Below are positions 34,895 through 57,866 of a DNA stretch of 64,000 nt, piece after piece. Position numbers and translations under genes: made by a program. Under the pieces are notes generated by a model that saw nothing but the letters and a program-made list of their open reading frames with translations, searched no databases and was not told the origin of the DNA. Origin of the DNA: Bdellovibrionales bacterium (GTDB lineage Bacteria > Bdellovibrionota > Bdellovibrionia > Bdellovibrionales > Bdellovibrionaceae); NCBI GenBank assembly GCA_018266295.1, contig JAFEAQ010000011.1:248001-312000 (forward strand). Direction: 5' to 3'. Position 1 is the first letter of the stretch, and each line of letters opens with the position of its first letter.

Positions 34895-34938
34895 CCCTCT
34901 GATTATGGTCAACCTATAAGTTGACCATAATCAGAGGG
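34895..34938. repeat. 44-nt hairpin repeat, copy 1
   Basis: A 19-base perfect stem (outer CCCTCTGATTATGGTCAAC) with the loop CTATAA, located between convergent genes. A related copy at 57724-57767 has the same outer stem and the core GGTCAACCTATAAGTTGACC but different middle-stem bases that still pair. No T-tract follows. Confidence 0.85.
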
Positions 34939-35016
34939 AAAAAGATAACGTGAGTGATTCCGTTATTTTGATTTATTTTGGGAGTTTTGCTCTTTGCGAC
35001 TCCAGCGCCCGCGCGC

Positions 35017-57647: not shown

Positions 57648-57723
57648 GGCTGGCGGGCCGCGGCTGGGCTTCCGCAGAAAAGCGGCCCGTGCGAGCGGTA
57701 AGTCTTAGCGTGAGATAGCGGCC

Positions 57724-57767
57724 CCCTCTGAATAAGGTCAACCTATAAGTTGACCCTATTCAGAGGG
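57724..57767. repeat. 44-nt hairpin repeat, copy 2
   Basis: The stem (outer CCCTCTGAATAAGGTCAAC) pairs with its partner with one A-C mismatch around loop CTATAA. It lies between convergent genes, as copy 1 at 34895-34938 does, with base changes that preserve pairing. Confidence 0.85.
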
Positions 57768-57866
57768 AGGCACTGAGAACATATAAACTTACTTATTCGG
57801 TCACTTCCGCAGGGGCTTTGGTTTATTATTCGTGTGTTTTGATTTCTTCTCGGAGCTTTATGCCAG

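Follow-up and report, generated by a model that had tools for sequence, protein, structure and literature searches.

A family of 44-bp palindromes, each folding into a long hairpin, is dispersed through nine or more Bdellovibrionales genomes, where it keeps its base pairing while the mid-stem changes from genome to genome. It is linked to the gene of a small Xre-type helix-turn-helix (HTH) protein, the dispersed copies of a genome matching the hairpin beside that genome's own gene, and in the genome studied here it has in addition a lineage-specific link to an IS200-like Y1 transposon. The reading that we favour, with confidence evenly divided for and against, is that the Xre-like protein recognises the hairpins as palindromic sites, that the hairpin at its own gene serves autoregulation, and that the copies are dispersed in the manner of REP sequences.

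Two hairpins with exchanged mid-stems

The window (the whole 64,000-nucleotide stretch analysed) contains two copies of the palindrome (Table 1), exactly where an earlier note made from the sequence alone had placed them, against 0.01 occurrences of the core expected by chance. The copies are 91% identical, and each folds into 19 stem pairs and a 6-nt loop, very stably on both strands (z −11.6 for copy 1 and −8.2 for copy 2 relative to shuffled sequences, plus strand); the mid-stem is swapped between them with pairing kept, as the note had described, apart from one A–C mismatch at stem pair 12/33 of copy 2. Both also lie, as it had said, between convergent open reading frames (ORFs), 34873(+)/35017(−) for copy 1, flanked by genes for a TMEM175-type channel protein and an unassigned ORF, and 57647(+)/57867(−) for copy 2, flanked by those for a GNAT acetyltransferase and a pseudouridine synthase. 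Neither strand shows a terminator-like T-tract after either copy, so that the GC-rich stem followed by a T-tract that marks an intrinsic terminator is absent from both, again in agreement with the note. At the Rfam gathering score the window yields two tRNAs only, with nothing at the hairpins.

Table 1. Positions of the hairpins and associated remnants in the window
Feature	Position	Strand	Remarks
Hairpin palindrome, copy 1, 44 bp	34895..34938	.	Stem type TTATGG/CCATAA; R2 67.6 bits
Short remnant resembling the Y1 transposase element 3' end, ATAACGGAAT...	34939..34968	-	DNA alignment to GTAACGGAATAA of intact copies
Hairpin palindrome, copy 2, 44 bp	57724..57767	.	Stem type ATAAGG/CCCTAT, one A-C mismatch; R2 66.7 bits
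Repeat unit of ~198 bp around copy 2: Y1 element 3' end, hairpin and right end	57662..57859	-	
Y1 transposase C-terminus remnant, SEKKSKHTNNKPK	57816..57857	-	DNA alignment, homologous units L003 and L006

A dispersed family with pairing conserved across genera

A genome-wide search for the core, proposed in the same note, revealed a REP-like family: when up to three mismatches are allowed, the core is found 19 times (four for a reversed-pattern control), and a covariance model (R1) identified 20 loci in this genome. About 16 of these, both window copies included, sit in larger mosaic repeats, with the 3' end of a 174–197 aa ORF on one side and a short conserved right end on the other; L010, L018 and both copies of L017 have no recognisable Y1 flanks. 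Of the 18 copies that could be classified, 15 are flanked by convergent ORFs, on a rough annotation built from ORFs that treats those of Y1 as neighbours. Covariation among 19 same-genome copies is weak (0.079 vs 0.054 shuffled, with 16 of 500 shuffles as high), so the argument from two copies does not stand alone; we rejected as unconvincing a case for covariation drawn from this genome only, the score being barely above shuffles.

Two copies from one genome cannot show covariation, but the compensatory changes that the earlier note had read from them are many across genera. R1 also matched two genomes that belong to other genera of the same family, in which foot and apex are identical, the mid-stem differs and pairing is kept. 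Fifteen hairpins, taken from five genomes and aligned without gaps over 44 columns, have 90% of their cells paired and double changes at 17 of 20 pairs; their cross-genome covariation is 0.464, against 0.140 ± 0.021 in shuffles (0 of 500 as high), and slid versions of the alignment score at most 0.11. A further model (R2), run on 243 relatives, gave strong matches in nine genomes only, at 1 to about 22 copies per genome; carriers include a Bdellovibrio (G040), a member of the Bdellovibrionaceae (G010) and one of the Bdellovibrionales (G103). The foot CTC...GAG and the apex TNNA are near-invariant, and the mid-stem varies by genome with pairing kept. Across 69 copies, T and A flank the central dinucleotide in 99%, and stem positions 3–14 are paired in 84–100%. 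These proportions, like the covariation of the 15 aligned hairpins, apply to copies found by structure-aware models or palindrome scans, which would miss non-palindromic (unpaired) relatives. Because the family is genome-wide and its pairing holds across genera, the possibility raised in the note, of only two copies and no pairing conserved in relatives, falls away. Its contrast with a simple duplication is not borne out in the form given there: most copies here duplicate one larger repeat unit.

Several features of individual copies were also recorded. In otherwise well-paired stems, pairing dips to 62–70% at columns 15–16/29–30 (69 copies), which recalls the bulge of E. coli REPs. In G010 (L201:1531-1628) a BIME-like pair is formed by two family hairpins of different type, separated by 10 nt. 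The hairpins of G019 (L214-L217, L153) share longer flanks (tattcatatttttgc … / cgcccttgtcggatttattcat) and so belong to a larger repeat in that genome, which has no PF01797 matches. In G025 (L181-L200) a T-rich stretch lies 4–7 nt outside one foot and often falls on the neighbouring gene's stop codon; the information of this flank motif is 9.35 bits, against a null mean of 4.4 and maximum of 5.9. Copy-specific complementary flanks of 5–9 bp are found among L181, L188, L092, L213, L094 and L006, those of L181 being terminator-like (aaaagccg … cggctttt), as though the palindrome had been inserted into a hairpin loop already in place. An empty-site comparison of a G026 copy behind lon with a same-genus genome gave no alignable intergenic region.

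An Xre-type HTH protein gene accompanies the hairpins

Two hairpins in this genome, G000, precede the gene of a 166-aa HTH protein (C22, ORF at L017:3321-3821) that matches TIGR02612, the 'mobile mystery protein A' (mob_myst_A) family, weakly (64.6 bits, cut-off 122.6), and hairpin-adjoining genes of the same divergent kind occur in G040 and G026. When the 243 relatives are searched with TIGR02612, bona fide members are separable from the divergent group, which at about 50–65 bits falls below the curated cut-off and matches mainly profile positions 17–115. The family hairpin adjoins the divergent gene in G000, G010, G019, G025, G026, G040 (at several paralogues), G098 and G103, and G075 has a weak hairpin only. 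Those of G000, G026 and G040-C112 were found blind to the gene by R1, and those of G010 and G025 by R2, in whose training they were absent; those of G103, G098 and G040-C40 came from scanning upstream of the gene. Eight of the nine genomes with strong R2 hairpins possess the divergent gene. Counting two additional weak, partial matches as hairpin-positive gives a Fisher p of 3e-10 for all genomes and of 3e-4 once the five training genomes are removed. Four genomes, G075 with its weak one among them, carry the gene without a strong hairpin, which counts against the reading favoured here.

The gene-linked hairpin often ends 3–20 nt upstream of the start codon, with the GAGG of its foot at the Shine–Dalgarno position (for example CCAGAGGAgtaaaATG in G103). 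The linkage is also one of sequence: for 40 of 43 dispersed copies the best match is the gene-linked hairpin of their own genome (mean identity 0.81 vs 0.58), and in G040 hairpin types differ between paralogues.

All 11 aligned divergent proteins match HTH_3, and no catalytic domain is recognisable in the Xre-like protein. Its AlphaFold model (mean pLDDT 83.6) resembles solved Xre/HigA-type structures over the HTH only, with no E-value below 0.5, and the protein was not found in phage and plasmid records. A Fic-type neighbour (an ORF with a Fic motif; mobile mystery protein B) stands beside four bona fide mob_myst_A genes, and a motif search found none beside the divergent genes examined. TATA-centred palindromes are present upstream of bona fide mob_myst_A genes as well, with weak, apex-only R2 matches at 3 of 30 loci. 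In L113, L131, L132, L139, L289 and L305 there are often at least two such palindromes in the 100 nt or so upstream, dependent on lineage; they look like the operators of the family.

A Y1 transposon carries the hairpin in this genome

The ORF of the mosaic repeats appears to encode a Y1 protein of the IS200-like kind; it has an HUH-type motif, SHIH (present in NWSHIHMVM), and a match to PF01797 (E 7e-4, 20 bits) below the curated cut-off of 23 bits. Its gene is represented in this genome by five intact copies (75–100% identity), several fragments and about a dozen distant homologues, and a search of a collection of genome contigs returned no named relatives of the transposase. Most copies have a 3' hairpin, about 20 nt beyond the stop codon in the intact ones, and many have lost their 5' part yet retain it. 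Window copy 2 belongs to such a 5'-truncated unit (87–91% identity to the full-length units L002, L003 and L006); its C-terminal remnant is weak alone against intact Y1 proteins (tblastn, E 0.1–0.2), and the homologous units L003 and L006 reach E 1e-9 and 8e-12. Copy 1 retains just a short remnant, recognised from the 77% identity of L004 1489-1562 to L014. A second set of dispersed repeats (…CCATCCATGAGAACGGGGCTGTCCGACCATCGTGGTCGGCCAGGC… and GGCCGGCCCGGATGGCCGGA; L020, L022, L023 and L012) occurs up- or downstream of Y1 copies and elsewhere in this genome, which suggests further palindromic mosaic repeats at the Y1 flanks.

These observations might be taken to mean that an IS200/RAYT-like Y1 element uses the hairpin as the recognition structure of its end, that the dispersed copies are nonautonomous, REP- or MITE-like derivatives of the element, and that the Xre-like gene either plays no part or arrived later as a host regulator. 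The union of about 16 of 20 copies with 3'-end remnants of the multicopy Y1 gene, together with a position and shape like those of IS200/IS605 end hairpins, speak for this account, and that the Y1 element explains most copies here was weighed against a primary role of the Xre-like protein. Yet R2 found no family hairpin at 60 further Y1 loci, drawn from this genome and from others and in a few cases overlapping, and a palindrome scan agreed; G019 bears hairpins with no PF01797 match, and elsewhere it is the Xre-like gene that is the closest partner in a fixed position; nor was a comparable 5' hairpin found at the Y1 gene, the hairpin being on the 3' side only, or a GTAG tag at the element. We therefore regard this account as unlikely. 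A Y1/RAYT transposon end, true of most copies here, was rejected as a general explanation on the evidence of the hairpin-free Y1 loci and G019, which likewise make the Y1 link lineage-specific; the palindrome was probably captured by the Y1 element, or used as its 3' end, and then multiplied with it.

What maintains the pairing

Pairing might also be kept by selection on RNA, were the hairpin an element of gene 3' ends such as a bidirectional terminator or a barrier at the mRNA end. Many copies outside this genome start 1–20 nt after a stop codon, and the mostly convergent neighbours in this genome and the stable folds of both strands fit such a role; however, convergent spacers are also where insertions simply do least harm, and the window copies have no T-tract. 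In G025, the copy-richest genome, with 22 copies in unrelated flanks, doubly changed Watson–Crick cells number 27 against 13.3 in shuffles (largest 22); the mismatches are 7 G·U and 6 A·C, where selection on one RNA strand should favour G·U. The near-invariant foot and apex and the genome-specific match to the Xre-linked copy are also left unexplained, and we consider such a role improbable; of the 'RNA or cruciform structure' put forward in the earlier note, the RNA half is thus disfavoured. Still less probable is purely mutational upkeep, in which template switching during replication corrects imperfect palindromes and the arms of inert repeats change together: in 8 of 54 copies the flanks are complementary for 3–9 bp beyond the foot, more than in shuffled flanks (mean 1.17 vs 0.45 ± 0.12), as if the arms had been copied onto each other, but correction alone explains neither a foot and apex near-invariant across genera beside a changing mid-stem nor the Xre-like gene link.

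A site for a dimeric protein needs no 19-bp stem with a free middle, a point against the favoured reading; the folded strand, or palindromy itself, must then be acted on, and single-strand or cruciform folding, or mutational palindrome correction, probably contributes as well.

Discussion

Under the favoured reading, the palindrome would be recognised by the small Xre-type HTH protein, a divergent relative of mob_myst_A. The founding palindrome would lie just upstream of the protein's own gene, overlapping the ribosome-binding region, and would probably be an autoregulatory site; from there 44-bp copies would have dispersed through nine genomes or more, often to the 3' ends of genes. Protein and palindrome would drift together, which would give each genome, or paralogue, a mid-stem of its own. 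In the present genome one palindrome would have turned into the 3' terminal hairpin of the Y1 transposon, whose mostly decayed 3'-end copies would account for about 16 of the 20 hairpins, the two window copies among them. Binding of the palindrome by the protein, control of the gene through this binding and a need for the protein in dispersal are steps we infer from linkage and sequence matching. More doubtful is a stronger form of partnership, in which an Xre HTH protein with no nuclease or transposase domain co-evolves with the hairpins and is needed for their spread or upkeep, the foot of the founding hairpin doubling as the ribosome-binding site of its gene. The pattern as a whole suggests a partnership of protein and hairpin that resembles REP repeats but would have no dedicated transposase.

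REP/REPIN sequences and their RAYT (TnpA-REP) partners are dispersed, mostly extragenic palindromes of 20–50 nt, genome-dependent in sequence with palindromy kept, whose copies adjoin one co-varying gene (PMC2817692, PMC8266576; definitions also from PMC3733652). The present family is likewise dispersed, mostly between ORFs, 44 bp long and co-variant with a flanking gene; unlike REPs, its conserved partner is an Xre HTH protein and not a Y1 transposase between two REPs, and it numbers 1–22 copies against tens to thousands. An unpaired GTAG/CGTC tag beside the foot was found in none of the aligned copies, G025 having just the loose T-rich flank motif. Because there is neither such a tag nor a Y1 gene flanked by two repeats, the family is not a member of REP/RAYT. 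Untagged REP-like palindromes have been described in Mycobacterium, Deinococcus, Bordetella, Brucella and Cyanobacteria, where the question of partner proteins was raised (PMC3733652), and the present family fits this class. Compared by description only, those families share with the present one dispersed palindromes with no tag and no known transposase, and differ in that a partner gene is indicated here by linkage and co-variation.

As at the operators of mob_myst_A and other Xre-type proteins (HigA, HipB, C proteins), TATA-centred palindromes are found just upstream of the regulator's own gene. Operators of this type are usually short and confined to promoters, whereas the present hairpins are 44 bp long, have a long paired stem and are scattered genome-wide. 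With IS200/IS605 end hairpins they share, in this genome, a palindrome placed 3' of a Y1 gene that is present in several copies; they differ in that a single terminal hairpin is seen, other Y1 homologues have none, and the PF01797 match is below the cut-off.

Keyword searches of the open-licence literature yielded no title that describes the family, and these palindromes of Bdellovibrio-like bacteria are apparently undescribed so far. We know of no partner identified for untagged palindromic repeats; linkage, genome-specific matching and paralogue-specific hairpin types here direct attention to a single small protein whose family is uncharacterised. If this is correct, it would provide the first function for a branch of the 'mobile mystery' proteins.
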